30,945 nucleotides of DNA, taken from a virus. Positions 5,391 through 28,857 of this stretch are shown here, piece after piece. Location of the stretch: IMG/VR virus record IMGVR_UViG_3300044695_004172, positions 1-30,945 of that record; one strand, given 5' to 3'. A model generated the notes under the pieces. It was not told where the DNA came from. It saw only the letters and a program-made list of their open reading frames with translations, and did not search any database. The first letter of the stretch is position 1. The number at the start of each line of letters is the position of its first letter. A program made the position numbers and the translations under genes.

Positions 5391-6305
5391 ATGAAAAAAT
5401 CATTGTGTTGTATTTCTCTTCAACTTCAAGAAAAAGGTTATAAAGCTAATACCATGACCAAGACTAGGTTCTTGACATTGGAACGCAAAAATGCTTTATC
5501 TACTGTTTCACAACGAACTCTTAATAATGTACATGTTGCGGTGAATACATTTGCATTTTGTGCAAGTAAAGGTTGGAATTATAGAATTAGTAGTGACTTG
5601 TTTCCATTGGCTACTTTGCCAGAAGCTAATCTATCATTTGATGTTCTTCCCGATAAAGATCGTATTTATGCCGAATTCAAGCGTGGTGCAGATATTATCA
5701 AAAAGAATAATTTACGATGTAGTACACATCCCGATCAATTTGTTGTACCTGCAAGTGCTACGAAATCTGTAGTAGAAAAATCCATTGTTGAACTAAAAAA
5801 TCATGCTACAATTATGGATTTGTTTGGTTTACCGCAATCATACGAAGCTCCAATGAATATTCATATGAATTGTTACAAAGGTGATACCAAAGATATTGCC
5901 AAACGGTTTATTGATGTTTACAATGATTTTCCTGTTAATGTTAAGTCTCGTCTTGTTCTTGAGAATGAAGACAAACCTAACAGTTGGAAAGTAGAAGAAT
6001 TGTATGATTTGATTTATTCAAATACTGGTATTCCTATTACTTACGACAATCTTCATTTTCGTTGTAACTCTGGTAAATTGATTGCTAAAGATGCAATGAA
6101 GTTGGCTATGTCTACATGGGGTAGTTATCGTCCATTGTTTCATTTTAGTGACAATGATTTGTCCAACAAAAATCCACGAGCACATGGTGATTATGTTCGT
6201 AGTATTCCTGAAGAATATGTTGACATGAATGGAGTTGACTATGACTTTGAATTCAAGGCTAAGGATTATGCGATTGAACGGTTTGAAAAAGAATTTAAAT
6301 TATAA
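5391..6305 (+). CDS. uvsE: UV damage endonuclease UvsE (UVDE family)
   Basis: A 304-residue TIM-barrel endonuclease of the UVDE family, which nicks DNA 5' of UV photoproducts to start alternative excision repair. Visible family motifs are CCISLQLQ at the N-terminus, YRISSDLFPLA (64-74), THPDQFVV (112-119), NIHMN (156-160), LENED (190-194), YDNLHF and FHFSD, which supply the His, Glu and Asp residues that hold the metal ions. Length is normal for the family. The ATG at 5391 keeps the conserved first strand; the next Met (22) would remove it. It is expressed from its own promoter with almost no leader. A repair enzyme fits a phage exposed to sunlight. Confidence 0.9.
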   Translation: MKKSLCCISLQLQEKGYKANTMTKTRFLTLERKNALSTVSQRTLNNVHVAVNTFAFCASKGWNYRISSDLFPLATLPEANLSFDVLPDKDRIYAEFKRGADIIKKNNLRCSTHPDQFVVPASATKSVVEKSIVELKNHATIMDLFGLPQSYEAPMNIHMNCYKGDTKDIAKRFIDVYNDFPVNVKSRLVLENEDKPNSWKVEELYDLIYSNTGIPITYDNLHFRCNSGKLIAKDAMKLAMSTWGSYRPLFHFSDNDLSNKNPRAHGDYVRSIPEEYVDMNGVDYDFEFKAKDYAIERFEKEFKL

Positions 6306-6316
6306 TTAAAAAGATG

Positions 6317-6345
6317 TTGACGAAACAGTGAACATGGTGTAAAGT
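6317..6345 (+). promoter_or_regulatory. sigma70-like promoter, TTGACG-N17-TAAAGT
   Basis: TTGACG (6317-6322) and TAAAGT (6340-6345) are 17 bases apart, the third example of this design in the left arm. It begins 12 bases after the uvsE stop and should drive the run of small genes from 6405 through gp62 and dNMP kinase, since no other promoter of this type is visible before 8209. Confidence 0.7.
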
Positions 6346-6353
6346 AATTTCAA

Positions 6354-6371
6354 GTTAGTAATGAAACTAAC
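6354..6371 (+). promoter_or_regulatory. 5'-terminal mRNA hairpin
   Basis: GTTAGT and ACTAAC are exact inverted repeats around a 6-base loop, beginning about nine bases past the -10. As at 3039, an A-rich leader of about 33 bases, nearly free of G and with no Shine-Dalgarno site, runs on to the ATG at 6405. Confidence 0.5.
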
Positions 6372-6404
6372 GAAACATAAAATAAACAAAAAATAAATAA
6401 AAAT

Positions 6405-6614
6405 ATGATTATTCGTAAAAATAACAAGATGCAGACTAATTTCGTATACAATAGTGCTGCTAAGGTAGAAACATTCATCTCGTATCCATTTGCTGGAACC
6501 AAGCGAGCTGGTACTCGTTTGACTATTCGTAATGGTAAGACTCGTATTGATTTGAATGGCCGTCAAGTTAAGGCACTACGCAAGGTTCTTGCTACTGCTT
6601 CCCGAGTTAAGTAA
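6405..6614 (+). CDS. small basic hypothetical protein
   Basis: 69 residues, not recognised. It is strongly basic (many Arg and Lys, few acidic residues). Strand-like segments (KVETFISYPF, TRLTIRNGKTRIDLNG) are followed by a C-terminal helix, RQVKALRKVLATASRVK. The shape would suit nucleic-acid binding. It is the first gene after the promoter at 6317, 14 bases ahead of another small basic ORF. Confidence 0.65.
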   Translation: MIIRKNNKMQTNFVYNSAAKVETFISYPFAGTKRAGTRLTIRNGKTRIDLNGRQVKALRKVLATASRVK

Positions 6615-6628
6615 TCTTTGGTTTGAGT

Positions 6629-6778
6629 ATGGGAAAGACATTTAGAAGAGACAATGAATTTAGAACCAAGAGTTCTAAGTTTAAAAAAAATAAAAAATTG
6701 TCAAAGGTAAATAAACCATATTTAAATAAAGGAGGGAAGGTAAGAAATTACCAAGATGAAGTAGATAATGAATATTAA
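6629..6778 (+). CDS. 49-residue very basic protein
   Basis: A short frame from ATG 6629 to TAA 6776-6778 encodes 49 residues beginning MGKTFRRDNEFRTKSSK, with more than a dozen Lys or Arg in the first 40 residues and an acidic last ten. It fills what would otherwise be a 150-base gap, and its end overlaps the next start by 11 bases, as expected in a packed operon. Function unknown; an RNA- or DNA-binding peptide is possible. Confidence 0.55.
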   Translation: MGKTFRRDNEFRTKSSKFKKNKKLSKVNKPYLNKGGKVRNYQDEVDNEY

Positions 6779-7127
6779 ATCAATAGTTGTCATAATAATT
6801 AATGTAGTATTATTTTCATTATCGCTTAAATTTCAGAGTGTAACGCCATTCGCAGTAATGTGGTTGGCGTTACATTCTTTTTATTTAAGTTATAAATTGG
6901 AAGAATATAAAAACGCAATTCTTGTTAGTATTGATGACGATAAGAAAAAATTGGAAAAGGAATTAAATACCTTGTATTTGAATCAAAAGACTGTATTATC
7001 GGTTATTAATGCTTTAAGAGCACGAATCAACAATCATTATGGGAAGACCCAAAAAACAAAAAACCCCTCTCTCAAAGAACGATTCAAATCAATCGAACGA
7101 AGAGACGCAGAACTTAACGAAGAGTAA
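6768..7127 (+). CDS. small membrane protein with coiled-coil tail
   Basis: 119 residues. Two hydrophobic segments (about 5-21 and 27-43) could form a membrane hairpin, followed by a charged heptad-like helix (about 50-90, DDDKKKLEKELNTLYLNQKT) and a basic end. The last 89 bases overlap the start of gp62 in another frame. Not recognised. Genes of this shape in phages include holin-like and membrane-anchoring proteins, but nothing here decides between them. Confidence 0.6.
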   Translation: MNIKSIVVIIINVVLFSLSLKFQSVTPFAVMWLALHSFYLSYKLEEYKNAILVSIDDDKKKLEKELNTLYLNQKTVLSVINALRARINNHYGKTQKTKNPSLKERFKSIERRDAELNEE

Positions 7128-7566
7128 ATCTTTATTTGATCATATCAATCAAATTAGGGAAGTTAAGAATCCTAAGTATTTTGATACACTTACTGCTGCA
7201 GATATTAAATCGTTCAATAAGTATACATTATTGATGGGACTTGGTATGGATCAAATGATTATTGAAGAAATTGCGTTTGTATCCAAGTATTTTGACATCT
7301 TACATGAGAAACATCTTTATAAGGTATTATGTGACTTTGTACCACATGGCAGACGGTTTTGTAAGTGGATTAAACCTAACAAAGTAAAATTCAACAAAGA
7401 TTTAATTCAATTGGTATCAAATAAATTTGAGGTAAGCAAAGATGATGCCTATAGTTATTGTGTACTATTTTTCAGAACGGAAAGTGGTATTAATAGTCTG
7501 ATTGATATATGTAAACAATATGGTAAATCAGAAAAAGAAATAGAAGGGTTAATGGAGAATGAATAA
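7039..7566 (+). CDS. 62: sliding clamp loader small subunit, T4 gp62-like
   Basis: 175 residues. VPHGRRFCKWIK (101-112) matches the T4 gp62 segment VPRGKRYGKWAK. The following helices (LIQLVSNKFEVSKDDAYSYC, then a GINSLIDICKQYG segment) align in order with the rest of gp62. With gp44, gp62 loads the gp45 clamp on DNA for replication and late transcription. The ATG at 7039 is the only ATG before the conserved region, the next being Met66, so the basic N-terminal extension MGRPKKQKTP is probably real. This makes 89 bases code in two frames. The stop overlaps the dNMP kinase start. It is the best single marker that this is a T4-like phage; gp44 and gp45 are not in the window. Confidence 0.82.
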   Translation: MGRPKKQKTPLSKNDSNQSNEETQNLTKSKSLFDHINQIREVKNPKYFDTLTAADIKSFNKYTLLMGLGMDQMIIEEIAFVSKYFDILHEKHLYKVLCDFVPHGRRFCKWIKPNKVKFNKDLIQLVSNKFEVSKDDAYSYCVLFFRTESGINSLIDICKQYGKSEKEIEGLMENE

Positions 7567-11560: not shown

Positions 11561-12194
11561 TTGGTATAAAAATTTTATCTACTCCATATGATGCAACTAA
11601 TTTATAATTTAATTTATTTAATAAATCATAAATATTTTCAGAATTGGTATTGTATCTATTTAACCATTTTTCACAAAATTCAATACATAAAACTGGTTTA
11701 AATTTTTTTATAGTTTCTATTGCTCCTAATAATGCATTAAATTCATATCCTTCGACATCTAATTGTATTAGATTACAATCTGGTAAGTTCAAATTATCTA
11801 ATATTATTGTTGGAATAAATCCGGCTCCGTTTACATGTACTCCTCCAGTATCATGTAATCTTTCGGGACGAATTAACTGTGATACATTTACAGTATTTAA
11901 TTCATTTCCAAGACAACATTGCATTTTTATTACATTTGTTGAAGTAACATTTTGATTCAAACAATAAAAATTTACAGGATCAGGTTCAAATGTATAAATT
12001 ATATTAAAATGTGATATGAATGTACTTAATAAAAATCCACAATTTCCTCCTGCTTGAATCATTACATTTTTATTTTTAATATATGGTAATATATAAGTTG
12101 ATAAATCTTTCAATTCATTTTGACCTTTCCAAGAATTTTCATCTATTATAGGCCACACCCATTTTTCATCTTTTAATGTTATTTTGTCTTTCAT
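11550..12194 (-). CDS. FkbM-family methyltransferase
   Basis: 214 residues. The SAM-binding motif I is VMIQAGGNCGFL (44-55), then FEPDP (69-73), NQNVTSTNV, and LIQLDVEGYEFNALLGA (142-158), the diagnostic FkbM/Methyltransf_21 sequence. These enzymes O-methylate sugars and other hydroxyl groups with S-adenosylmethionine, so it probably caps or decorates a glycan residue. The start overlaps the upstream epimerase gene by 29 bases, the longest overlap in this operon; the preferred start keeps MKDKITLKDEKWVWP. Compact compared with many FkbM proteins (about 230-280). Confidence 0.85.
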   Translation of the reverse strand: MKDKITLKDEKWVWPIIDENSWKGQNELKDLSTYILPYIKNKNVMIQAGGNCGFLLSTFISHFNIIYTFEPDPVNFYCLNQNVTSTNVIKMQCCLGNELNTVNVSQLIRPERLHDTGGVHVNGAGFIPTIILDNLNLPDCNLIQLDVEGYEFNALLGAIETIKKFKPVLCIEFCEKWLNRYNTNSENIYDLLNKLNYKLVASYGVDKIFIPNEL

Positions 12195-13089
12195 AAAATT
12201 CTATTGTTCTGGACAATCCTTCTTCAATATCTATTAATTTATATATGTTTGACAATTTTTTTATTTTGGTATTATCCCCACATAAAAAATTACTATTATC
12301 TTTTCGATTCAAATTTTTATCAAATATAATTTCTGATTTACTATTTGTTAATCGATATAATGTGTTAATAACATCTTTTAATTTATATTGGTTGCCGGAA
12401 CAAATATTATATACACCACGTTCATCGGATAATATTAAGCTATATACAAAATTTACAAAATCATCAATATAAAGATAATCTAATGTTGCACTACATTCGT
12501 TTAAATGAATCATTTCATTTTTTAATAATTTAGTTATTAAAGTGGGAATCAATCTCGTTGATACATCATTTGGACCGTATGTATAACACGGGCGTATCCA
12601 TTTCCAATTTATATCATTTTGTTTACAATATAATTCACTATATTGTTTAAATGTAAATTTTGATATTCCGTACAAACTATTTGGTTTTTCAAAATATTCT
12701 TCTGTAATTGGTGTATTATAATCTCCGTATTCAGCAAAACTACCAGCTCCTATGATTTTTGGTTTGTGTTTAAATTTACTTATCAATGTTAAAAACTTTA
12801 TATGGTCCGGTAGATTTTTGTAAAATTGATCTATACTATTTATATCTTTATAATTATTTGCACCATTCCATCCCAATAATAGTATTACATCCGGCAAAAA
12901 ATGTTCGATTTCATCTATATGATTATGAATTGTATCCATATAAGATGGAATAAATTTGTATTTATTGCGTTCAAATTGAATATTATTATTGTGTTTTGAT
13001 GTTATTAATACATGATGATTTTTATCAATTAATTTTTTTGTAATATTTGATCCTAAGAAACCATTTCCACCTGTAATTAATATATTCAT
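12166..13089 (-). CDS. NAD-dependent epimerase/dehydratase (extended SDR)
   Basis: 307 residues. Rossmann motif TGGNGFLG (G7, G10, G13), active-site YGISK (Tyr140, Lys144) and RPCYTYGPND after it. The GSFAEYGD segment stands where dehydratases carry the TDEVYG triad, so this is more likely a 4-reductase or epimerase than a 4,6-dehydratase. It lies next to a second SDR with nearly the same first 15 residues (MNILxTGxNGFxGSN), probably a tandem duplication. Likely role: a finishing reduction or epimerisation of the 4-keto sugar made by the enzymes encoded upstream. Confidence 0.8.
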   Translation of the reverse strand: MNILITGGNGFLGSNITKKLIDKNHHVLITSKHNNNIQFERNKYKFIPSYMDTIHNHIDEIEHFLPDVILLLGWNGANNYKDINSIDQFYKNLPDHIKFLTLISKFKHKPKIIGAGSFAEYGDYNTPITEEYFEKPNSLYGISKFTFKQYSELYCKQNDINWKWIRPCYTYGPNDVSTRLIPTLITKLLKNEMIHLNECSATLDYLYIDDFVNFVYSLILSDERGVYNICSGNQYKLKDVINTLYRLTNSKSEIIFDKNLNRKDNSNFLCGDNTKIKKLSNIYKLIDIEEGLSRTIEFYERQNNIKR

Positions 13090-13928
13090 AGTATATTCAT
13101 ATAGTGTTTATAACAATCTTTAATTCCTTGATGAATTCCTTTAAAATTTAAATTTAATGAATTTAATTTATGTCCATTTCCGGTATAACTTAATCCGACG
13201 GAGTGATTTTCTATCTTTATATCTACTTTATATGAGGACAATTCATTTATAATATTTGCAATATCACTTAATTTATACTTTTTTATATATGACACATTAA
13301 TGTCTACATATGATGATATTGAATTATTCAAAAAATATTTTACAATATTTATTAAATCTTCCATATAAAAGAAATCTATATATCTATCTTGATGGATAAT
13401 TATTGGTTTGTGATTTATATAATTATTTATATTATTTCTTATAAATCTCGTAGATAATTCGTTGTAGTAGAAACAACCAAACATTCTAAGATTTACACTT
13501 CTACGATAATTCATAGACAATTTTGAAATTACATTTTTCGACAGTCCGTAAAAATCCGTTGGAATTTTATTAAATATATCGTATTCATTTATATTTGATA
13601 TATTATCTTTACGATCAAACTCTGCGCCAGAGCCAAAATTAATAAATACTTTGTATCTATCATTAAATTTAATTAAATTTTTATACATTAATATATTTTT
13701 ATAAAACATTTCATATGTATCTTGTTCTAACCTATGACCACCTTCGATTGCACAATGTATTATTGTATCTATGTTGTTTTCATCTAGATATTTTTCGATA
13801 TTATCTGTTGAATATAAATCTATAGTATTTCTATTACCTTGAAATAGATTTAAGTTATCATGATTAGATAACAATTTTATTAGATTTGATCCAATAAAAC
13901 CATTTGATCCTGTAACTAATATATTCAT
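13086..13928 (-). CDS. NAD-dependent epimerase/reductase (extended SDR)
   Basis: 280 residues. TGSNGFIG (G7, G10, G13) binds the cofactor; FGSGAEFDRK and YGLSK (Tyr127, Lys131) form the active site; IHCAIEGGHRL resembles the segment in RmlD and GDP-fucose synthase type reductases. The C-terminal substrate domain is shorter than usual. Base composition is extreme (18% GC in the line 13561-13620, against 42% at 241-300). Overlaps both neighbours by four bases. Probably a keto-sugar reductase or epimerase; the exact sugar is unknown. Confidence 0.78.
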   Translation of the reverse strand: MNILVTGSNGFIGSNLIKLLSNHDNLNLFQGNRNTIDLYSTDNIEKYLDENNIDTIIHCAIEGGHRLEQDTYEMFYKNILMYKNLIKFNDRYKVFINFGSGAEFDRKDNISNINEYDIFNKIPTDFYGLSKNVISKLSMNYRRSVNLRMFGCFYYNELSTRFIRNNINNYINHKPIIIHQDRYIDFFYMEDLINIVKYFLNNSISSYVDINVSYIKKYKLSDIANIINELSSYKVDIKIENHSVGLSYTGNGHKLNSLNLNFKGIHQGIKDCYKHYMNIL

Positions 13929-14305
13929 AGTTTAGACAAAAATTCTAAAGTTTTGATTCTTACTAATTCGTTTCCAAATTCGAGTGCTTTATCATCTATA
14001 TAGTAATCCGCTAGGATTTTTGGACTAGACCCAGATAGTTTTTTGGCTTCTCTTTCTGGATTATTTTTGTTGACTTGATCAAATTCCAATCCTTGTTGTT
14101 TACACCATTCAATTGCTTCAGATAAACATTTCAATTTTTCATTATCTCCTCTGTTAGTCCAAAGAATCAAATAATGTCCTTTTTCTCTTAGTTTGATTAA
14201 GAGGTCCAATAGATTTTTTTGTTGTTCTGTCTGTTTTCCAATAGATGGAAATGCATACTCACATAGAGTACCATCAAAATCGACTGCTATAACTAATTGT
14301 TTCAT
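13925..14305 (-). CDS. HAD-family phosphatase
   Basis: 126 residues, a cap-less HAD hydrolase. DFDGT (9-13) gives the nucleophile and general acid, LWTNRGD (Thr50) motif II, and YYIDDKALEF (Asp104, Asp105) motif IV. Lysines before motif IV can supply motif III. It resembles small HADs of the BT0820 type. In this setting it may dephosphorylate a sugar phosphate intermediate. Five bases from the LdpA-like gene upstream and overlapping the next gene by four. A second, different HAD lies at 24988-25350. Confidence 0.8.
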   Translation of the reverse strand: MKQLVIAVDFDGTLCEYAFPSIGKQTEQQKNLLDLLIKLREKGHYLILWTNRGDNEKLKCLSEAIEWCKQQGLEFDQVNKNNPEREAKKLSGSSPKILADYYIDDKALEFGNELVRIKTLEFLSKL

Positions 14306-14310
14306 ATATT

Positions 14311-15468
14311 TTATTGTTTATTACTTTTGTTAATTAACTCTTTTGCGTTTAAAAATGCAAGTTTGATTAATTCATCATTGTTATAGAAATCGTTTGATGT
14401 AATGAATTCTTCAATCAAATCTCTGGCAAATGTTCCAATTGATACACCATTGATTCTTACACCTGCTTTTTCAGCTAATTCTTTACTAAATGAATTTGTT
14501 CCTCCTGAAATTAGGAGTGGAATGTTATCAACATCATTTATATCTTTATAAATTTTCTTTGATGAGATCTTTGGTTTTCCGAGTTTATCTACACCACGTT
14601 TTTTATCAATTCTCATGTTGAATTTTTTATTTACAACATCTGCACATGCAATTGCTTGTAAAGTAGTGTTATAATCGTCTTCTCCGCCACTCATAGGATA
14701 TCCATCTGCCTGAATCATTAAACGATTACCTGATACCTTTTTTGCTTCTTGAATTCTGTGTTCAAGTCTCAAATTTCCAAGGTTCAACCTATCCAAACAC
14801 ATAGAATTGTAATTGGTTGAATTAATTTCGTTGATAAGTTTCCATTCCTGTAATGTGATATCATCCTCACCAACTGCAGCGTGGAGTTCAAATAGTTCTG
14901 CTCCTGCATCCATGCATTTTGGTAATAGTTTGTTTACTTCTCTAGCATTATGTCGATATGAGATAATATCAGATTTTGGACAAATACTGCTGCATTTACC
15001 ACATCCGATACAAAGATCTTTAATAACAATTTCTTTTGATTGATCTTCAACATCAAATGATCCATTTAGATTTTTAAAAAAGTCTAGATTTTTAGTAAAG
15101 TCTTTGGGAATTGCATCGGTTGGACATATAGGAATACATAATGTACATGAAATACATTTATTTTGATCGATAAATGATTTTCTTACATGAGGATCGCCTG
15201 GCATACCAACACTAACCATAATATAAGGTCTGTGTTCAATTGTCACATTTAACTTGTGAGCATATTCGTATGCTAAATCAATACCCTCCATTGCAGATTT
15301 CACAATATCAACATTAGCAGATACATCTAAAATTTTTGTACCTGCTAAAGTATAAATAAAAGCCAATTTTTTAACTTGACTTTTGTCTTCATTTCCAGCC
15401 CCACATATCATTTTAAAACATTGTTCTTTATGAATAATGTCTTGTAAGATTTCAAATCGTGTTTTCAT
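14311..15468 (-). CDS. ldpA: LdpA-like double [4Fe-4S] protein
   Basis: 385 residues. The N-terminal part FKMICGAGNE...LAFIYTLAGTKILDVSA (18-51) and YIMVSVGMPGDPHVRK match cyanobacterial LdpA. Two ferredoxin-type clusters follow: Cys105, 108, 111, 115 and Cys153, 156, 159, 163. The C-terminal half has ADGYPMSGGEDDYNTT and ISGGTNSFS, then INGVSIGTFARDLI, matching the LdpA_C pattern. LdpA of Synechococcus is known for redox and light input to the circadian clock; its chemistry is not known to me. Here it ends a ThDP, HpcH, HpcH, LdpA gene run, which points to an enzyme or electron carrier in sugar synthesis. One idea is that it supplies electrons to the E1-type dehydrase, since no E3-type reductase is visible. 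Confidence 0.75.
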   Translation of the reverse strand: MKTRFEILQDIIHKEQCFKMICGAGNEDKSQVKKLAFIYTLAGTKILDVSANVDIVKSAMEGIDLAYEYAHKLNVTIEHRPYIMVSVGMPGDPHVRKSFIDQNKCISCTLCIPICPTDAIPKDFTKNLDFFKNLNGSFDVEDQSKEIVIKDLCIGCGKCSSICPKSDIISYRHNAREVNKLLPKCMDAGAELFELHAAVGEDDITLQEWKLINEINSTNYNSMCLDRLNLGNLRLEHRIQEAKKVSGNRLMIQADGYPMSGGEDDYNTTLQAIACADVVNKKFNMRIDKKRGVDKLGKPKISSKKIYKDINDVDNIPLLISGGTNSFSKELAEKAGVRINGVSIGTFARDLIEEFITSNDFYNNDELIKLAFLNAKELINKSNKQ

Positions 15469-15472
15469 GTTA

Positions 15473-16225
15473 TTATCTATTAATCAACGACTTTATTCTG
15501 TCATCTAATTCATTAACTGTCAATGTAAAATTGTTTCTTTTATATTTTAACAATTCGATTTCATATTCAAGTGCAGATTGAATTGTTTTTTCTAAACAAT
15601 GAATATTATAGTCGTTCAGTTTAATAACTACATTTCTAGTTTCAATTTTATCCAACAAATTGTCAAAATACATTTTTTTAATAAATTCTACACTTTTTGT
15701 AGATATATTACCTCCTAATGTAGTTGGATAATTATATTTTTTAGATTTTATAAGAATGTCTTTTACTTTATCAAATATAAAATCACAATTTACTTCTGAT
15801 TTATTCATGGAATATGATTTTGAAAAATCCGATCTACCAATAATAATTCCGTTTAACTTATTATTGCCATATTCCAATATATCATCTAAATTTTCATATG
15901 CAGTTTTCGTTTCTATAACTATATAAGAGTGTATTCTGTCTGAATGTAATGATATGATATCAGTAAATTTAGACAATGCAAATGAAGATTCCACCATGGG
16001 TGCAATTATATCATTTATACCATATTTGACGCAATTGTTTATATCGGTTTTAGCTTCACATCCACCAATTTTAACAAAACATTTAAGATTACAAATATCT
16101 GTAATTCTTCTAACTACAAGTAAATCATCTAAATTAATACCTTCATCTTCAAATGATTGTTTTAGTCCGATGATTCCATAATTAGTTGATAATAACTCTA
16201 AATTTTTTATTAAATTAACAATCAT
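15473..16225 (-). CDS. HpcH/HpaI aldolase/citrate lyase family protein, divergent
   Basis: 250 residues. LKQSFEDEGINLDDLL, FVKIGGCEAKTD (50-61) and IIAPMVESSFALSKF (73-87) are typical of a TIM-barrel subgroup often found in surface-sugar clusters. VIETKTAYENLDD (Glu105) and IIIGRSDFSKS (Asp133) keep the two metal ligands of the HpcH/HpaI family, but the DTEHG histidine is absent and the arginine is replaced by Lys52. Chemistry may therefore differ from pyruvate aldolases. Overlaps its canonical relative (16222-16920) by four bases, and the pair probably works together or on successive steps. Confidence 0.72.
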   Translation of the reverse strand: MIVNLIKNLELLSTNYGIIGLKQSFEDEGINLDDLLVVRRITDICNLKCFVKIGGCEAKTDINNCVKYGINDIIAPMVESSFALSKFTDIISLHSDRIHSYIVIETKTAYENLDDILEYGNNKLNGIIIGRSDFSKSYSMNKSEVNCDFIFDKVKDILIKSKKYNYPTTLGGNISTKSVEFIKKMYFDNLLDKIETRNVVIKLNDYNIHCLEKTIQSALEYEIELLKYKRNNFTLTVNELDDRIKSLINR

Positions 16226-16920
16226 AATTTTACAGTGTTTATTCCATTTTTAATAAAATCCGTATCCATGCCCCATATAATTAATTTAGGTACAATTTTG
16301 TTTTCTTTTTTATCGGAATTAAATTGTTCTATATTTTTAAATGTAGGAAGAAACATTCCTAATTTATCTTTGTCGATTATATTATAGATTTTATTGACAT
16401 ATTTTTTATATAACGAACTTTCCCATTTACATACACATCCAAGACTATTTGACAAGTCATATGGACCTATAATAAACATATCAAATCCACATTTATAAAT
16501 AGATTTTAAATTGTCTACGGATTTTTTTGTTTCTATTTGTCCAATTATAATTGGCATCTTTGTTCCTATACTATCATCTCCCCACTGATTTTCTCTTACA
16601 AGACCACACCCTCTTTTTCCATTATATAATGGATATTTACAAAAATCTACAATTTCTTTTCCTTGGTCATATGATTCTACAGTAGAAAAAATTACACCAG
16701 TTGCTCCTGCATCTAAACACATTCTCACCAAAGTTTTATTTAAATCAGTGAATCTAACAAAACATTGTTTTTTATATAAAGTTATTACTTGTATACAAGA
16801 ATATAACGTTTCATTATTAAAGTTACCGTGTTCAGTATCTAATACAACACCATCAAATTTAGAATTGGAGAACAATTCAGAAATTAATGTAGAGGGAATT
16901 GTTTGTAAAGTTAGATTCAT
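16222..16920 (-). CDS. HpcH/HpaI-type class II aldolase
   Basis: 232 residues with the full HpcH/HpaI set: DTEHG (His31), VRF (Arg56), QIETKKS (Glu130) and IIGPYDLSNSLG (Asp155). The Glu-Asp spacing of 25 is within one of the 26 I recall for HpcH. Such enzymes add pyruvate or related enolates to aldehydes, or cleave the product. Between a ThDP enzyme and a divergent paralogue, it may build or break a carbon branch on a sugar precursor. Slightly shorter than HpaI (about 260). Confidence 0.82.
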   Translation of the reverse strand: MNLTLQTIPSTLISELFSNSKFDGVVLDTEHGNFNNETLYSCIQVITLYKKQCFVRFTDLNKTLVRMCLDAGATGVIFSTVESYDQGKEIVDFCKYPLYNGKRGCGLVRENQWGDDSIGTKMPIIIGQIETKKSVDNLKSIYKCGFDMFIIGPYDLSNSLGCVCKWESSLYKKYVNKIYNIIDKDKLGMFLPTFKNIEQFNSDKKENKIVPKLIIWGMDTDFIKNGINTVKL

Positions 16921-18713
16921 TTTCTAATTTTATAAGAAATATCATTTACTTTTATAACCATATTACTTTCAAGTGTTTCTATTGAAAGCAAAGGAGACAT
17001 ATCTTCAATTGGAGGTGGTAGAATTCCATCTTTGGTTAAAATACCTTTAACTTTTGGCACCAAATCTTGTTCTGGATTCATATAACATTCCAGTATAGCA
17101 TATCCTTGATGATTTAAAAAGTCTTCCACAGAATTATTTTTAGTATTAAAATAAGGAATTTCAAATGCATCAGCTATACGTTTAAAACTTGGAAGACTTA
17201 CACCAGTATCTGCATTGACACCAGTATATCTTCCATTGAACAACATTTTTTGTGTATGTTTGATGAACAAATATCCTTCATTATTAAAAATAATAATTTT
17301 TATTGGGAGTTTATATCCTACAATTGTTTGCAATTCTTGAAGATTCATCATCATACTACCATCACCGTCAAATAATATTACATTACGGTCTTTTGCAGCA
17401 AATGAAGCACCAATTGCAGATGGTAATCCATTTCCCATTTCACCTAACCCATTTGATGCAAATACGGTCTGACCATTTTTTATTTCAAGTGACTGGTGAC
17501 ATGATGGTAGTGGAGTTCCTTGTCCTATAACAATTACATCGTCGTTTTTTAATAACTTTGATACATTATTTATAAAAACATAAGAATTGTCATGTTTTAG
17601 ATTATCTTCTAAATGACATTTTTCTACTAATGGAAAATTCTTTTTATACGTCAAACATTGTTGATACCATTGATTTTTATAACATGTAATGTTTTCTAAA
17701 AGCAATTTATTTATAAAATCTTTACAATCACTGTTGATCGTAATGTCATACCGAGAATGTTTTTTCAATTCTCCTTCATCATTATTGATCATTACAATCT
17801 TTGCTTCTGGCGCAAAATTGTTTATATTGTATCCTGTTTGTGGAAGAGCTAATCTACTTCCAAGTACAATTAATAGATCACAGTTTTGTATTACAAAATT
17901 TGCACAACGTTGACCATATAATCCAGGACATCCAAAATTATACTCATGATCAAACGAAAGATTGTCAATACCAGACCAAGAAAGTACGACTGGAATTTTT
18001 AACTTTTCAATTAATTTTTTTAATTCTGTTTGTGACTTAGACAGTCTTACACCATGACCCGCAAGAATTACAGGACGAACAGAACTTTTAATTAAATCTA
18101 CGATATTTGATACATTATAATTTTCTGTGGGATTTACAGATAATTCGTATTTGATTAGATCTTCTTTATTTAGAATTGCAGATTGCATATCCATGGGAAT
18201 ATCAATCCATACAGGTCCTGGTCTTCCATTTGTAGTGATATGATATGATTCTTCCAATGAAGACAATAATTGTGATTTGTTTTTGATGATTGTACTGAAT
18301 TTAACAATATCTTTTACCATTTTAGACACATTAAATCCTTGAGTGCCTAACATTCTTAAATGTGAATGTTCGTTGACATATTTTGTTGATTCTTGTCCGG
18401 AAATAACAATACAAGGAATAGAATCTGCCCAATTACACAAAACACCAGTAATAGCATTAGATGCACCTGCACCTGCTGTAACAATTGCAGCGGTAACTTT
18501 TCCTGTTGTTCTATAATACGAACCGGCTGCCATTACGACAGCTTGTTCATGATGCATATAGATTACTTTAGTATATCCTTTACGAGCAATTGAATCGAAT
18601 ATATAAGAATTTGCCGAACCAATTATACCAAATACAGTTTGTATTTCTTTTTCTTCAAGAAAATCTGCTATTAAGTCCGCTGCTAAATAATCGTTTTTGT
18701 TATAATTTACCAT
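16917..18713 (-). CDS. ThDP-dependent enzyme, acetolactate synthase/YerE-like
   Basis: 598 residues in the three-domain ThDP order: PYR domain with catalytic Glu56 in HHEQAVVMAAG, middle domain (about 190-330, LAGHGVRLS, IVLGSRL), and PP domain with GDGSMMMNLQ...IIIFNN (450-478) binding ThDP and magnesium. It resembles acetohydroxyacid synthase but sits in a sugar operon, not beside a regulatory subunit. YerE, which transfers a two-carbon unit from pyruvate to a CDP-3,6-dideoxy-4-keto sugar to make yersiniose, belongs to the same superfamily. The 4,6-dehydratase and E1-type dehydrase encoded just upstream would make that kind of acceptor. Overlaps by seven and four bases with its neighbours. 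The acyl donor and acceptor are inferred. Confidence 0.85.
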   Translation of the reverse strand: MVNYNKNDYLAADLIADFLEEKEIQTVFGIIGSANSYIFDSIARKGYTKVIYMHHEQAVVMAAGSYYRTTGKVTAAIVTAGAGASNAITGVLCNWADSIPCIVISGQESTKYVNEHSHLRMLGTQGFNVSKMVKDIVKFSTIIKNKSQLLSSLEESYHITTNGRPGPVWIDIPMDMQSAILNKEDLIKYELSVNPTENYNVSNIVDLIKSSVRPVILAGHGVRLSKSQTELKKLIEKLKIPVVLSWSGIDNLSFDHEYNFGCPGLYGQRCANFVIQNCDLLIVLGSRLALPQTGYNINNFAPEAKIVMINNDEGELKKHSRYDITINSDCKDFINKLLLENITCYKNQWYQQCLTYKKNFPLVEKCHLEDNLKHDNSYVFINNVSKLLKNDDVIVIGQGTPLPSCHQSLEIKNGQTVFASNGLGEMGNGLPSAIGASFAAKDRNVILFDGDGSMMMNLQELQTIVGYKLPIKIIIFNNEGYLFIKHTQKMLFNGRYTGVNADTGVSLPSFKRIADAFEIPYFNTKNNSVEDFLNHQGYAILECYMNPEQDLVPKVKGILTKDGILPPPIEDMSPLLSIETLESNMVIKVNDISYKIRK

Positions 18714-19663
18714 ATAAAATTGTTTTTGTAAAATTGTACTATTTTCTTTAGTTCTTCGTCAAATTGACATTGAGGAGACCATCCCAAATTTTTTAATTTG
18801 TCGTCATTTAACGCATATCTTACATCTTGTCCAATTCTTGTCAATGAAAAATCAATATATTTTTCTTTATATCCTGGTACCAATTCTCCGAAATATTCTT
18901 TCACAATTTTTTCTAATGTAACTATATTTGATTGTTCAAATCCTCCTGCAATATTATAAATCTCATTTTCAACACCCGATTCTATAATAGTTATAATACC
19001 TCTTGCAGTATCTTTTGCATGTAACCAATTTCTAATCGGTGTACCATTGTTATGAAGTGGTACTTTTCTTCCCAAAGCAATATACTTACATGTTTTTGGT
19101 ATTAACTTTTCCACATACTGTCCGATACCATAATTGTTTGTTGGTCTGACAATTACATATTTTACATTGTATGTTCTTGCCCATGCCAATATTAGTTGAT
19201 CTGCTGCAGCTTTTGTTGCTGCATATGGATTGCTTGGTTTCAGTATATCTGTTTCTATATGTTCACCGTGTTCAATATCACCATAAACTTCATCCGTGCT
19301 AAAGTGTATTAATAATGGTTTTACTTGTCCTTGTTTGTTATAATTTCTTAACAATTCCAATATATTATGTACACCGTTAATATTAGAATGAACAAAGTCA
19401 TCACTTTTTCTAATTGAATTGTCTACGTGAGATTCCGCAGCAATATTGATAAAATAATCACAGTCAATCAATCTATCTAGATCATTTATATCAGACTTGT
19501 CAAAACTAAAATTTTCATATTTATTGAATTCTTTAAGAATCTCTGGTTGTGCCGCATAAGTGATTTTATCAATCCCTCTGACATACCATCCTTTATTTAA
19601 ACATTCTCTGGTAACATAAGATCCAATAAACCCTAAACATCCTGTAATATACACTATTTTCAT
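18707..19663 (-). CDS. rfbB: nucleotide-sugar 4,6-dehydratase, RmlB-like
   Basis: 318 residues. TGCLGFIGS (7-15) binds NAD; AAESHVDNSI (75-84); STDEVYG (122-128) contains the Thr-Asp-Glu dehydratase triad; Tyr147 and Lys151 sit in YAATK; RPTNNYGIGQYVEKLIPK and GTPIRNWLHAKDTARG complete the RmlB signature. It oxidises C4 and removes water across C5-C6 of an NDP-hexose to give the 4-keto-6-deoxy sugar. RmlB itself uses dTDP-glucose and is about 355 residues; the CDP-glucose enzyme is a relative, and the nucleotide here is not decided. It is followed within six bases by the upstream E1-type gene, the expected next step. Confidence 0.88.
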   Translation of the reverse strand: MKIVYITGCLGFIGSYVTRECLNKGWYVRGIDKITYAAQPEILKEFNKYENFSFDKSDINDLDRLIDCDYFINIAAESHVDNSIRKSDDFVHSNINGVHNILELLRNYNKQGQVKPLLIHFSTDEVYGDIEHGEHIETDILKPSNPYAATKAAADQLILAWARTYNVKYVIVRPTNNYGIGQYVEKLIPKTCKYIALGRKVPLHNNGTPIRNWLHAKDTARGIITIIESGVENEIYNIAGGFEQSNIVTLEKIVKEYFGELVPGYKEKYIDFSLTRIGQDVRYALNDDKLKNLGWSPQCQFDEELKKIVQFYKNNFIW

Positions 19664-19669
19664 ATAATT

Positions 19670-20977
19670 TTATTTCTTAAAAAATGACTCTACTTTTTCT
19701 TGTATGTAATCTAATTGTTCTGAAGTAATTACTGGACTAGTTCCTAAGAAAAAAGTATCGGTTGTTACTTTTCTTGCATTAGGATATTTAGAAATTACTT
19801 CAGTTTTATCTATTAATCCAGTATATGCTGGTTGTAACATAATATTACCTGCGAAATATGGTCTGGTTTGGATTTTATTTGATTCTAAATAATCCACAAT
19901 ATCTTTACGTTTAAACAACGAATTGTTTTTAATAGTTACTGCAAATGCAAACCAACTAGGATCGGATAAATCAGTCGCAATTGGCAATAGAAAATATTCT
20001 TCATATGTCTTGAATATATTAACTAATCTAGTATGATTTTCTTTTCTTCTACGATGAATTTCAGGCAATTTCTTTAACTGTTCTAAACCGATAGAAGCTT
20101 GCAGTTCAATTGGTTTTAAATTATATCCAATTTCATCGTAAACGTATTTATGATCAAATACTTCATCTGGTAGTTCTGGTAACCAATTACTAAATCTAGT
20201 ACCACAACTACCATTTTTTAACAGACCTGCTTTTTTACCAACGCAATAACATCCACGTCCCCATTCACGGAAACTACGAGTAACTATTTCTTGCATCTTA
20301 GTATTACATGCAACAAATCCACCTTCACCCATAGTCATGTGATGTGCAGGATAGAAACTACAACTTGCTAGTTCACCAAAACTACCAAGTGGTTTACCAT
20401 CATAAGTTGAACCAAGCGCATCACAACAGTCTTCCAATAGAATTAAATTGTATTGTTTAACTATTTCCATCAAACGCTTCATATTGGGTGGGTTACCTAA
20501 TACATGAGCAAATGTAATGATTTTTGCGCCTTTCTTTGCTACTTCTTCAACTTGGTCTAAGTTGAGGTTTAATGTATCTAAATCAATATCAACAAATACT
20601 GGTTCAAATCCCACTTGAAAAATTGGATTTAATGTAGTAGGAAACCCTGCAATTGGTGTAATTACTTTAGTTCCTTTTGGTAGATTATATAATCTTTTAG
20701 ATGTCATTGCTAACATCATTAATAGATTTGAACTACTACCACTATTAGTTAGTATACCATATTCTTTGTCAAATTGTTTTGGAAACAGAGTTTCAAAGGT
20801 TATTGCATCTTGTCCTAAGACTAACCATTCATTCAATAATGATTTTACTGCAGCTATATATTCTTTATCATCAAAGAATGGTCCTGCATATTGCACCCAA
20901 TCTTTGCCTGCTTCCCATTTTTTTGAAGATTGTTTGTTTTTAATAAACGAAGAGATTTCTTGTAAAATGTTATTCAT
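19670..20977 (-). CDS. rfbH: E1/RfbH-type 3-dehydrase (PLP/PMP and [2Fe-2S])
   Basis: 435 residues, DegT/AryC1 fold. SFYPAHHMTMGEGG (207-220) places His213 where aminotransferases carry the PLP lysine, the hallmark of E1 (DdhC/RfbH) and ColD dehydrases. Cys185-x57-Cys243-x1-Cys245 matches the spacing I recall for the E1 [2Fe-2S] cluster (C-x57-C-x1-C-x7-C). The last ligand is probably Cys258, 12 rather than 7 residues on, because of a GKKAGLLKNG insertion. E1 removes the 3-hydroxyl of a 4-keto-6-deoxy sugar with electrons from an E3 reductase. No E3 is visible. GC is higher than in the neighbouring SDR genes. Confidence 0.9.
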   Translation of the reverse strand: MNNILQEISSFIKNKQSSKKWEAGKDWVQYAGPFFDDKEYIAAVKSLLNEWLVLGQDAITFETLFPKQFDKEYGILTNSGSSSNLLMMLAMTSKRLYNLPKGTKVITPIAGFPTTLNPIFQVGFEPVFVDIDLDTLNLNLDQVEEVAKKGAKIITFAHVLGNPPNMKRLMEIVKQYNLILLEDCCDALGSTYDGKPLGSFGELASCSFYPAHHMTMGEGGFVACNTKMQEIVTRSFREWGRGCYCVGKKAGLLKNGSCGTRFSNWLPELPDEVFDHKYVYDEIGYNLKPIELQASIGLEQLKKLPEIHRRRKENHTRLVNIFKTYEEYFLLPIATDLSDPSWFAFAVTIKNNSLFKRKDIVDYLESNKIQTRPYFAGNIMLQPAYTGLIDKTEVISKYPNARKVTTDTFFLGTSPVITSEQLDYIQEKVESFFKK

Positions 20978-25350: not shown

Positions 25351-26323
25351 ATAACTCTTTTAATTTATCTTTTATATTATTTTTAATGATATTGTCAATA
25401 TCAAATCTAACATTTTTCTTTATCTGATTTACAAAACTGTTAGTTGATAATACATAGTGTCCGCAGATATTAATCAATTGTTTTTTATTGGTGAAAGGAT
25501 CAAAAGTTTTGTTAACCCACTTTTCCCATTTTTTTGATTCATAACATATGTTAAAAAAAGTTTCAAATAACAAATCGTTATTATTTATTTCTTGTAAATA
25601 TGTTTTGGTTTCTATTTGACCAAATTCTGGTGCAATATTGATCGAATCTAATCCACATTCAAATTTTTCAAAAATAAGAAAGACAGGCAAATAATCGCCA
25701 TTGTGTTCTTTAGATAAAAGATTATATTTTTTACACACTGAAACCATGTCTAACAATCTTTGTTTATCATAAGATCCAGTATTTTTTGTTTCTTTTAAAG
25801 AAGTTCCGCTTTGAATTACTGCAAATTTTATTCTATCAAATTTTTCAACTGATAAATGTTTTTTCAAATATTCAATTAACTCTTCCAATTGATAGGATTC
25901 ATATTTAAAAATAGACTCCTCGGTACCTACTTCATATATGATGTTATTGTTTATATCAAAACAATGATCAATTAAGTTCTTTGTATTTATACATCCTTCT
26001 TTAAAAGATTTTGATATTTTCCACGGATCTATATGGATCGCATCGAAATAGTTTGCATCATGAATTAATGATGTTAATCCATCGTCATAGTGTAATCCTT
26101 GTCCTGGACCACCATGATCTCTTTTTAATAAAATATTACTGGATCGATCTCTTACATATTTAGAAAAAACTTCAGTCGTCCAATGATTTACATATCCTCC
26201 GATATAATCTACTTGTCTTCTAGATGGAATAAAAATCAAATGTTTATCGTTTTCGTTTGCATATTCAATACAAGCGTCAACGATGTTCTTTGACATCACT
26301 CCTATTCCATATTTATACTTCAT
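25337..26323 (-). CDS. GatZ/KbaZ-like TIM-barrel protein
   Basis: 328 residues. FIPSRRQVDYIGGYV (31-45), LLKRDHGGPGQG (65-76) and IHIDPWK (96-102) follow the pattern of the GatZ/KbaZ family, whose members support class II tagatose-1,6-bisphosphate aldolase (PT.NQV..GGYT; GGDHLGP). EVGTEES and NIAPEFGQIET also suit a barrel binding a sugar phosphate. No GatY/KbaY catalytic partner is visible. It lies between a shikimate-dehydrogenase-like gene and a HAD gene with overlaps of 11 and 14 bases. I infer an enzyme in its own right making or splitting a sugar phosphate; the reaction is unknown. Confidence 0.6.
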   Translation of the reverse strand: MKYKYGIGVMSKNIVDACIEYANENDKHLIFIPSRRQVDYIGGYVNHWTTEVFSKYVRDRSSNILLKRDHGGPGQGLHYDDGLTSLIHDANYFDAIHIDPWKISKSFKEGCINTKNLIDHCFDINNNIIYEVGTEESIFKYESYQLEELIEYLKKHLSVEKFDRIKFAVIQSGTSLKETKNTGSYDKQRLLDMVSVCKKYNLLSKEHNGDYLPVFLIFEKFECGLDSINIAPEFGQIETKTYLQEINNNDLLFETFFNICYESKKWEKWVNKTFDPFTNKKQLINICGHYVLSTNSFVNQIKKNVRFDIDNIIKNNIKDKLKELYGKD

Positions 26324-26960
26324 ATTTTATTCCGGTATATATTTCAAACTGTTTCATTGCTTGATTTAAATGAAATAAATTTCCAGTATCAGTTCCTACA
26401 ATACAATCAATGAAATCGTTTGAATTATCAAATACGATGTTAGTTACTGGTGTACAATTAAATATTAAACTATTTTTTAGTAAATTCAAGTTTCCCCAGT
26501 TATTTCTAGTAATATTGTTTACTAGAAATCCCATTTCTTTTGATTTAGATATTACAGCGTTGGCTAATCCGCCATTTCCAAGAATAAAAATTTCTTTGAA
26601 TTTATCTAATTTAGATACTAAAATTTTTTCGGTTGCATAGTAATCGGTATTGTATCCGATCATTTTGTTACTATCAAATAATATAGTATTTACTGATTTG
26701 CTGTTTATTGCACTTACATCTTTTTTATCTACCAATTCAAACGCAATTTTTTTATAAGGCATAGCAATTGCACATCCAGAAAAATTTAAATATATCGCAC
26801 TATTTAATGCTTTTTCGATATCATCGACCGAGAAGGATTTATAAATAGCGTTAATATTAAATTTTTTAAATGCGGGATTAAAGAATTCGCATCCTTTATT
26901 TCCCGCATTTTTACTGAATGAACAATAGATTTTAGTATCCTTATTTACTAATAGACTCAT
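26313..26960 (-). CDS. shikimate dehydrogenase-like oxidoreductase
   Basis: 215 residues, shorter than AroE (about 270). SFSK (14-17) parallels the shikimate-binding SxS motif; GCAIAMPYK (62-70) stands for NVTVPFK with catalytic Lys70; SVNTI and GYNTDYYA (102-109) give catalytic Asp106; ILGNGGLANA (126-135) is the cofactor loop. Both catalytic residues survive, so an active NAD(P)-dependent dehydrogenase is likely. No other shikimate gene is present, so it probably acts on a cyclic or keto-sugar relative made with the GatZ-like and fusion enzymes beside it. The missing C-terminal part may narrow the cofactor domain. Its start overlaps the fusion gene by 20 bases. Confidence 0.72.
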   Translation of the reverse strand: MSLLVNKDTKIYCSFSKNAGNKGCEFFNPAFKKFNINAIYKSFSVDDIEKALNSAIYLNFSGCAIAMPYKKIAFELVDKKDVSAINSKSVNTILFDSNKMIGYNTDYYATEKILVSKLDKFKEIFILGNGGLANAVISKSKEMGFLVNNITRNNWGNLNLLKNSLIFNCTPVTNIVFDNSNDFIDCIVGTDTGNLFHLNQAMKQFEIYTGIKYEV

Positions 26961-28857
26961 ATAACATTTCTGTTGACATAAACCACAACATTTTATTAAA
27001 TTTGTTGCTATGAAGAGGAGACATATTTAAATATATCAATCCAGTTATCATTTTTATTTTATTTATATCATAATTGTTATTGATCAACCAATTTTCATAA
27101 TTCTTTGTGAATTCTTGTAACTGAACTGTGCTTTCATATGAATAATTTACAGTTGATACTCCTTCTACAATATTAATCGAATCATCGTTTTTAAGTATAT
27201 TATATGGCAAGATGCACCCACCATACATTTTTGATAGATCGTAATGCAAATCACCACCATCAACTGATCCAGCAAAAGACTCCCTCCAATCAATATAAGT
27301 GAATTTATCAAAGGTTGAATTATAAATTACATTGTCAAATTGAAGGTCTCCGTGAAATGCACTGTAGAAAGAGTTTTCTTTTAATGAATTGAAATCAACA
27401 TTTGAAAGTATTTCCTTTAGAGAAGGATATTTCTTTGAATTAATTTCAAATGATTTATTGAAATAATCTTCGCCATACTTTTTTAAGAATGCATCTTTTC
27501 GTGAATTAGTTTTATCAATATAGAAAGAGTCAATTAAAGATTGATTTTTCCATTTGGATGATTCATCGATTACATTTTTATAGAATGACAAGAACTTATT
27601 GAATATTGTTACTGAATTGTATTCATATAAGGTTATACCCTCTTCCCAATCATAAGAAATGAAATTATTAGTAAGTTTGAAGTTGTTTGGTACTAACTTG
27701 TGTAATCTACATGCACGTTCACCTCTATTTTTTGTAATGATCTGATCAGAGTTAAATTTCAAGAATTTATTTCCGATTTTATATGTAACTTCATCAATTT
27801 CTTTATGTAAAGAAAGCGGAGAATCTTTGAAATGTTCTTTTGCTTTTTCAATATCATCCAAATTGCCGGTATCAAACCATTTTAATTCTTTTGCTTTTAG
27901 TGTAGGATATACACTTGGATTGTACCATGCAGAGACTAGTTCTGTATCTAAATCTGAAGATCCTAATTGTTTCCAGAAAATTTCATAATCCCAGATAGAT
28001 GCTAATCCAATAAAAGCATAATCAAATCCGTTCTCAGATTTATTTACGAAACTTGTTATATTATTATTTTCGTCTACTTTAGCAGTAGAGTATTTTTCTG
28101 GATAACTGGTTTGATGTACACCAAGCCAATTTCCGTCTAATTTAGGCATTTCAGAATCAATCAAACAATCAGCAGTAGTAATATAGAAAGGACGTTGTAG
28201 ATATTCCTTACATTTAAACGCAGAATATCCTGGTCCAATCTTTGAATCTTCCCATTTATCTACTTCTACAAAAGTAAATTTTCTTTGTGGATATGTAAGT
28301 TTACAATATTCAATCAACGAGTCTTTTTTATATCCAACTGCAACTACAATATCATAATTTTCTGGAAATTTTTCAATGATATGTGAAATAATTGCTTTAT
28401 TGTTTATAGAAACCAACGCTTTATTTTTTGATTTGGTGTGATGTTTTAATCTAGTTCCAAGACCTGCTGCTAGAATTAATACTGCTGGAGAAGAGTGTTC
28501 TCCTTCTATTTTTCCGTCTTTACGATTTGCATCATCTTCTAAACGAATTACATCATCTACTTCTGGTGTAGATACTTCTTGAAGAATAATATCAGTCAAT
28601 GCAATTACTCTATGTTTCTTTGGTGGAGTAACATTAAAATAATCACCAGCAGACATCATTTTCTTTTCAACTACACCGTCGTCATTTTCCAACCAAACCT
28701 CAGCATTGCCGGAAATTATATAGTTAGTTTCACGCTTTTTAACATGATATTGATAACTCGTTTTGTAACCTGCATTGATGTAAATTCTTTTATAGCAATA
28801 AACATCGTTTAATTCTAACCATTCTTCTTTTCCCCAAGGTTTAATTACAGTTTTCAT
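26941..28857 (-). CDS. triple fusion: cupin, sugar nucleotidyltransferase, kinase-like
   Basis: 638 residues in three domains. Residues 1-105 form a cupin (YINAGYKTSYQYHVKKRETNY with His38; PPKKHRV with His82), like the C-terminal domain of type II mannose-6-phosphate isomerases. Residues 125-350 form a nucleotidyltransferase: LILAAGLGTRLKHH (127-140), Lys146 in NKALV, ITTADCLI. Residues 370-638 form an aminoglycoside/choline-kinase-like phosphotransferase: HGDLQFDN (502-509) and YIDWRES with Asp523. Kinase then nucleotidyltransferase would turn a free sugar or polyol into an NDP-activated donor; the cupin may epimerise or isomerise it. This fusion order is not one I know. Substrate unknown; the GatZ-like and AroE-like genes may provide it. 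Confidence 0.82.
   Translation of the reverse strand: MKTVIKPWGKEEWLELNDVYCYKRIYINAGYKTSYQYHVKKRETNYIISGNAEVWLENDDGVVEKKMMSAGDYFNVTPPKKHRVIALTDIILQEVSTPEVDDVIRLEDDANRKDGKIEGEHSSPAVLILAAGLGTRLKHHTKSKNKALVSINNKAIISHIIEKFPENYDIVVAVGYKKDSLIEYCKLTYPQRKFTFVEVDKWEDSKIGPGYSAFKCKEYLQRPFYITTADCLIDSEMPKLDGNWLGVHQTSYPEKYSTAKVDENNNITSFVNKSENGFDYAFIGLASIWDYEIFWKQLGSSDLDTELVSAWYNPSVYPTLKAKELKWFDTGNLDDIEKAKEHFKDSPLSLHKEIDEVTYKIGNKFLKFNSDQIITKNRGERACRLHKLVPNNFKLTNNFISYDWEEGITLYEYNSVTIFNKFLSFYKNVIDESSKWKNQSLIDSFYIDKTNSRKDAFLKKYGEDYFNKSFEINSKKYPSLKEILSNVDFNSLKENSFYSAFHGDLQFDNVIYNSTFDKFTYIDWRESFAGSVDGGDLHYDLSKMYGGCILPYNILKNDDSINIVEGVSTVNYSYESTVQLQEFTKNYENWLINNNYDINKIKMITGLIYLNMSPLHSNKFNKMLWFMSTEMLYESISK

Follow-up and report, generated by a model that had tools for sequence, protein, structure and literature searches.

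We analyzed the viral DNA of IMG/VR virus record IMGVR_UViG_3300044695_004172, a stretch of 30,945 bases referred to here as the window, and describe an operon within it whose genes (12166–20977) all share the minus strand according to the open reading frame (ORF) map and profile scans. The operon probably makes a nucleotide-activated, carbon-branched, higher-carbon deoxysugar for the phage glycan locus, wherein a YerE-like thiamine diphosphate (ThDP)-dependent enzyme would attach a long donor supplied by a module of a divergent aldolase (HpcH2), a HAD phosphatase (HAD1), and an LdpA-like iron–sulfur protein. This reading draws on gene content, residues, folds, and co-occurrence. The genes, each with the evidence for its assignment, are as follows.

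19670–20977, minus: RfbH-like CDP-4-keto-6-deoxyglucose-3-dehydrase, for C3 deoxygenation (NCBIfam score and residues)
18707–19663, minus: nucleoside diphosphate (NDP)-glucose 4,6-dehydratase-like short-chain dehydrogenase/reductase (SDR), sharing 7 bases with the ThDP gene (TIGR01181 match)
16917–18713, minus: YerE-like ThDP-dependent lyase/ligase, predicted to join a 4-keto sugar with the acyl unit of an alpha-keto acid (TPP domains, JanthE match)
16222–16920, minus: HpcH1, class II pyruvate aldolase with a canonical active site (PF03328 and residues)
15473–16225, minus: HpcH2, divergent HpcH/HpaI-fold aldolase, the signature gene of the module (PF03328, predicted model, Foldseek)
14311–15468, minus: LdpA-like TIM-barrel protein having a ferredoxin-type insert with two CxxCxxCxxxC [4Fe-4S] motifs (LdpA_Fe-S-bd match)
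13925–14305, minus: HAD1, HAD phosphatase, obligate partner of the LdpA-like protein (NF046079 match, co-occurrence)
13086–13928, minus: SDR1, candidate reductase of the post-coupling ketone, a YerF-like role (PF01370, 79.6 bits)
12166–13089, minus: SDR2, second NAD-dependent epimerase/dehydratase/reductase (PF01370, 113.9 bits)

A preliminary description, made from the letters of the window, had proposed that the four genes from the ThDP enzyme to the LdpA-like protein form a unit. The ORF map recovers all four on the minus strand, with 4-base overlaps at the ThDP/HpcH1 and HpcH1/HpcH2 junctions and a 4-base gap between HpcH2 and the LdpA-like gene, and the residues that had been named are present, namely Glu56 and the cofactor motif of the ThDP enzyme, four residues of HpcH1, and eight cysteines of the LdpA-like protein. 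The unit had been drawn too narrowly, however, because HAD1, RfbH, and the 4,6-dehydratase belong to it as well, and the latter two define the pathway.

The ThDP enzyme carries three TPP-enzyme domains (N, M, and C) in a Pfam scan, Glu56 as the catalytic glutamate, and one GDG...NN motif at position 450. Its best PDB match, at 504.1 bits (E 5.2e-150) versus 253.4 bits for the next chain, is 8rph, which is JanthE, a YerE-like enzyme (PMC12188165). As judged from its sequence, the window protein is a member of the YerE-like subclass of branched-sugar synthases, with a predicted coupling reaction, and not an ordinary acetolactate synthase. RfbH scores 461.1 bits with NCBIfam model NF011936, above the curated cut-off of 423, and its pyridoxal phosphate lysine is replaced by histidine (SFYPAHHMTMGEGG). 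The RfbH/E1 dehydrases have a [2Fe-2S] motif of C-X57-C-X1-C-X7-C; the window protein has Cys185-X57-Cys243-X1-Cys245-X12-Cys258, in which the first spacings fit and the last is X12 rather than X7. Because the YerE-like enzyme has RfbH and a sugar 4,6-dehydratase as neighbors, the core appears to carry out yersiniose/erwiniose-type chemistry, and the earlier proposal that a carbon-branched or higher-carbon sugar is made gains support from the YerE-like class of the enzyme and from an RfbH neighbor that exceeds its cut-off. The 4,6-dehydratase matches TIGR01181 at 311.1 bits (cut-off 365.1) and the CDP model at only 72.5 bits; the nucleotide carried by its product is not settled, and the sequence is nearer the dTDP than the CDP model.

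Neighborhoods of HpcH2 in viral and bacterial loci

Scans of viral contigs with alignments of HpcH2 and of the LdpA-like protein yielded 103 and 24 relatives, respectively. With the best 80 of the 103 HpcH2 loci used and duplicates removed, 72 viral loci with HpcH2 or an LdpA-like gene were retained, among which 51 carry a YerE-like gene, 16 carry a CMP-ulosonate-type cytidylyltransferase, and none carries both; the other five, with neither consumer, end near HpcH2 at a contig end. The cytidylyltransferases counted were CTP_transf_3 proteins, PseF-like proteins, or, in locus L129, a KdsB above its cut-off. The models for these enzymes were seeded from loci lacking YerE, so finding the enzymes in those loci is in part built into the method; failing to find them in YerE loci is not built in, and at maximal sensitivity the models gave no score above about 16 bits in the YerE loci. 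The exclusion corresponds to a Fisher p of 1.7e-11 (71 loci, uncorrected for kinship). On the HpcH2 tree, the consumer switches at least three to four times, with L122 nested among relatives that accompany YerE. Each of the two consumers uses 2-keto acids, and the module is therefore most simply read as a source of such an acid.

The co-occurrence that the preliminary description had proposed to look for was found: five further distinct viral loci (L039, L116, L118, L125, and L127) have the same four genes in the same order, which argues that the arrangement is not due to chance. RfbH is present in 43 of the 51 viral YerE loci and the SDR2 family in four of them, whereas the SDR1 family is found in 45 of the 51 YerE loci and in none of the 16 cytidylyltransferase loci. 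HAD phosphatases follow HpcH2, and in L060 the two are fused in a single ORF (6345–7478; residues 10–226 aldolase and 256–375 HAD; noted for L061 as well), downstream of which lie an SDR and a CTP_transf_3 cytidylyltransferase. In 30 viral loci, HpcH2 stands beside a dehydroquinate synthase (DHQS)-like "sugar phosphate phospholyase" (in L066, TIGR04425 scores 397.8 bits and its cut-off is 400). DHQS acts on 3-deoxy-D-arabino-heptulosonate 7-phosphate (DAHP), a 3-deoxy-2-ulosonate phosphate. From the phosphatase linkage and fusion, and from the DHQS-like neighbor, we infer that HpcH2 forms a phosphorylated 2-keto-3-deoxy acid.

A conserved cluster with the order HpcH2, SDR, DHQS-like, YerE-like, SDR occurs in both phages and Acidobacteriota (L098, L101, and about 28 more viral loci; L155, L156, L172, L173, and L175–L183). 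It could provide a terminally deoxygenated or cyclized donor of a caryophyllose-like kind; the function of TIGR04425 is only hypothetical. A comparison of L120 with L101 raised the idea that the LdpA-like protein simply substitutes for the SDR and DHQS-like pair, but this substitution is not strict, as L123 has both sets and two HpcH2 copies. Separately, in L023 (IMGVR_UViG_3300002835_008302) the flanking proteins are 97–99% identical to those of the window, and the intervening stretch is swapped for one with a YerE of 37.5% identity and without HpcH1 or HpcH2, which is a natural exchange of a glycan-island cassette between close relatives.

Only Bacillota and Acidobacteriota, the latter together with the related Aminicenantes, were sampled among bacteria. 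HpcH2 was found in 21 of these genomes, in 19 beside YerE, in one at a contig end, and in one beside aconitase genes, and several clusters are ordered RfbF-RfbG-RfbH-YerE-HpcH2-HAD or HpcH2-SDR-DHQS-YerE. Judging by these homologs, the HpcH2–YerE part is shared by bacteria, and the LdpA-family variant is spread among uncultured phages; cultured phages gave no match to the LdpA-like protein or HpcH2, and plasmids gave none to the LdpA-like protein.

These neighborhoods bear on the strongest alternative, a plain pathway of the yersiniose A type in which the ThDP enzyme uses pyruvate to add a two-carbon branch and HpcH1, HpcH2, the LdpA-like protein, and HAD1 produce a second monosaccharide with no relation to the first, for instance an ulosonic acid. 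Pyruvate is indeed taken by YpYerE (PMC12247030), and eight loci that lack YerE have the trio of HpcH2, LdpA-like protein, and HAD1 next to cytidylyltransferases. Nevertheless, we consider this alternative unlikely. A second sugar of this kind is difficult to reconcile with the strict separation of YerE from cytidylyltransferases across the 72 loci, with the lack of any CTP_transf_3 family match among the window proteins scanned, or with the adjacency of HpcH2 and YerE in bacteria. Moreover, HpcH1 follows the YerE subtype: each of the five other loci with the near subtype (62–78% identity) has it, and the loci with the distant subtype (31–38%) all lack it.

Proteins of the module and the remainder of the window

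HpcH1 matches PF03328 at 48.6 bits and retains His31, Arg56, Glu130, and Asp155, but it reaches no single-function NCBIfam model. In L129 and L136, an HpaI-type aldolase likewise stands beside KdsB. That a canonical aldolase adjoins the consumer in both YerE and KdsB contexts suggests that the HpcH1-type enzyme makes the last carbon–carbon bond of the donor. The full order in L129 and L136 is HpcH2, LdpA-like, HAD1, HpaI aldolase, and KdsB, the CMP-3-deoxy-D-manno-octulosonic acid (CMP-KDO) synthetase, above its cut-off in L129; this cluster has the look of a pathway that makes a KDO-like sugar by way of an aldolase.

HpcH2 is more divergent (PF03328 at 28.8 bits, cut-off 25). The loss of its histidine, noted earlier, was borne out: Glu28 replaces the catalytic His of HpaI and Lys52 replaces the Arg, and both substitutions are invariant in its relatives. 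The positions aligned with the metal ligands, Glu105 and Asp133, are invariant in all relatives aligned. Its AlphaFold model (pLDDT 92.2) finds HpaI/SwHKA pyruvate aldolases as top Foldseek matches, and the barrel mouth holds 18 of its 22 invariant residues. A dead pseudo-enzyme was rejected on the basis of these mouth residues and the retained ligands, and the invariance of the latter indicates that the active site has been rewired instead.

To our knowledge, redox sensing in the cyanobacterial clock is the only role described so far for the LdpA family. The window protein matches LdpA_Fe-S-bd at 38.7 bits (cut-off 27.6) and LdpA_C at 21.9 bits, just under 22.2, and it aligns with the NF045992 LdpA model across nearly its full length at 142.1 bits, far under the equivalog cut-off of 450. 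Its cluster cysteines (Cys105/108/111/115 and Cys153/156/159/163) are all invariant in 18 phage homologs. In the predicted model, a TIM barrel is interrupted after strand 3 by a ferredoxin-type insert (overall pLDDT 75.7, the insert being poorly modeled). A PDB search with the barrel returned nothing, and Foldseek returned generic TIM barrels only, with TM-scores of at most 0.58; in the one scan of genome contigs made with it, the protein gave ferredoxin-domain matches only. As in enzymes, the mouth of the barrel is enriched in invariant residues (36 of 64 positions, p 2.3e-7), and so the protein seems enzyme-like. In our reading, it is an enzyme that carries out redox tailoring. The window showed no clock gene, and the mechanism of LdpA in the cyanobacterial clock is itself stated to be unknown (PMC13421787).

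In most cases, only a few bases separate the LdpA-like gene from HpcH2. HAD1 (NF046079, the BT0820 family, at 90.6 bits against a cut-off of 165) is beside it in 21 of 21 loci and never occurs without it. In L010 and L043, an 83-residue ORF after HpcH2 and before the HAD gene appears to be a remnant of the LdpA-like N terminus (42% identity). The only match in the 349 Bacillota genomes searched is an LdpA-family protein beside the housekeeping genes tmk and holB, above the LdpA_C cut-off (L142, 3186–4184, minus).

A mere electron carrier, standing in for the E3 reductase that RfbH needs, would also account for the two [4Fe-4S] motifs, and profile scans of the window showed no separate DdhD-like reductase. 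We give this idea little credence, and a role as the reductase of RfbH was set aside, because eight loci have the LdpA-like gene and no RfbH in the DNA examined; conversely, most RfbH/YerE loci do without the LdpA-like protein, and its 18 invariant polar residues at the barrel mouth exceed what a carrier would need.

Phage-type genes lie in the other half of the window, including clamp-loader-like, deoxynucleoside monophosphate kinase-like, UvdE, and CobS-like AAA ATPase genes. Within this half, a DruA-domain protein (PF14236, 79 bits) adjoins the UvdE UV-endonuclease (3769–4950 and 5391–6305, both plus). The glycan operon also encodes a 638-residue fusion of a mannose-6-phosphate-isomerase-type cupin with a nucleotidyltransferase domain (26941–28857, minus), which is possibly a sugar-1-phosphate activation enzyme. 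A 215-residue ORF (26313–26960, minus) has as its sole match a shikimate dehydrogenase substrate-binding domain (PF08501, residues 26–93).

Proposed pathway and comparison with known systems

In the predicted order of steps, the dehydratase and RfbH would produce an NDP-3,6-dideoxy-4-keto-hexose. HpcH2, joined by HpcH1 in this YerE subtype, would add pyruvate to a phosphorylated aldehyde by an aldol reaction and so form a longer 2-keto-3-deoxy acid, from which HAD1 would strip the phosphate and on which the LdpA-like [4Fe-4S] protein may perform a redox tailoring step. The YerE-like enzyme would then decarboxylate this alpha-keto acid, rather than plain pyruvate, and transfer the acyl unit to C4 of the sugar, and an SDR would reduce the ketone left by the coupling. 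In sister phages, the HpcH2 module would instead supply a CMP-ulosonate synthetase. HpcH/HpaI pyruvate aldolases are makers of 4-hydroxy-2-oxo acids. Such acids are the preferred donors of ErwE (PMC12247030), and hence an aldolase module fits donors of the ErwE type.

Several observations weigh against this pathway. L114 has YerE, the LdpA-like gene, and HAD1 but no HpcH2 in the locus DNA examined, and eight other LdpA-like loci are without YerE. HpcH2 has lost both the catalytic His and the catalytic Arg of HpaI, and the requirement for two aldolases is without explanation. Two HpcH2 relatives reside in aconitase-type catabolic operons, so the family is not restricted to sugars, and the dehydratase is closer to dTDP than to CDP enzymes. 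An ordinary acetohydroxyacid synthase, which the preliminary description had named as one of two outcomes that would refute its proposal, with the aldolases as auxiliary amino-acid or central-carbon genes, is hardly credible and was rejected, because TIGR00118 (biosynthetic acetolactate synthase), although the best NCBIfam match of the ThDP enzyme, falls short of its cut-off of 538.35 at 350.6 bits, JanthE is about 250 bits closer, no ilvN, ilvC, or ilvD match was seen among the window proteins scanned, and sugar genes flank both sides.

More tentatively, HpcH2, the LdpA-like protein, and HAD1 could together make 2-keto-3-deoxy (ulosonic-type) acids by a route that has not been described, with two fates for the product, YerE-like decarboxylative transfer or CMP activation, and the LdpA family could comprise iron–sulfur TIM-barrel enzymes; we regard this as possible rather than probable. 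If it is true, LdpA of cyanobacteria may be derived from an enzyme or may even now act as one. The operon also places the family in an enzymatic context. The module is also a proposed source for the long alpha-keto-acid donors of ErwE-type enzymes, which is left open in the literature covered. Furthermore, the rule that HpcH2 accompanies a YerE-like enzyme or a CMP synthetase, and never both, is testable and links an uncharacterized aldolase family to branched sugars of phages and bacteria.

Among known systems, Synechococcus elongatus LdpA, the circadian redox input protein, is homologous to the window protein over nearly its full length and has the two [4Fe-4S] motifs in common with it, but the window protein falls below the equivalog cut-off and resides in an operon of sugar enzymes without a clock context. 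The class II pyruvate aldolases HpaI, YfaU, and SwHKA share their fold and metal ligands fully with HpcH1 and partly with HpcH2, which differs from HpaI by Glu and Lys in place of the catalytic His and Arg and by GGN-S and ETRN motifs of its own. The pathways to CMP-KDO and CMP-sialic acid follow a KdsA-KdsC-KdsB logic that recurs in sister loci L014, L048, L060, and L129 as an aldol-type carbon–carbon bond former, a HAD phosphatase, and then a cytidylyltransferase, except that an HpcH/HpaI-fold enzyme replaces KdsA or NeuB; in the window, a ThDP enzyme is present instead of the cytidylyltransferase.

The closest relatives are the YerE, ErwE, and JanthE synthases of yersiniose A, erwiniose, and caryophyllose, which belong by sequence to the same ThDP subclass and have the same RfbH-type 3-deoxygenation partner, and the donor preference of ErwE matches the predicted products of the window's aldolases. 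The earlier claim that no described pathway has this set of genes holds in part: the RfbH and YerE core has been described, but the claim stands for the combination of aldolase pair, LdpA-like protein, and HAD phosphatase in the literature covered. Within that literature, the aldolase module is the new part, although a 2024 survey of about 200 YerE-like clusters may already mention an aldolase. No E3 reductase or CDP-glucose synthase was seen in the window, and its operon differs further from these three systems in being phage-encoded and in uniting an aldolase pair, a HAD phosphatase, and an LdpA-like protein in one operon.

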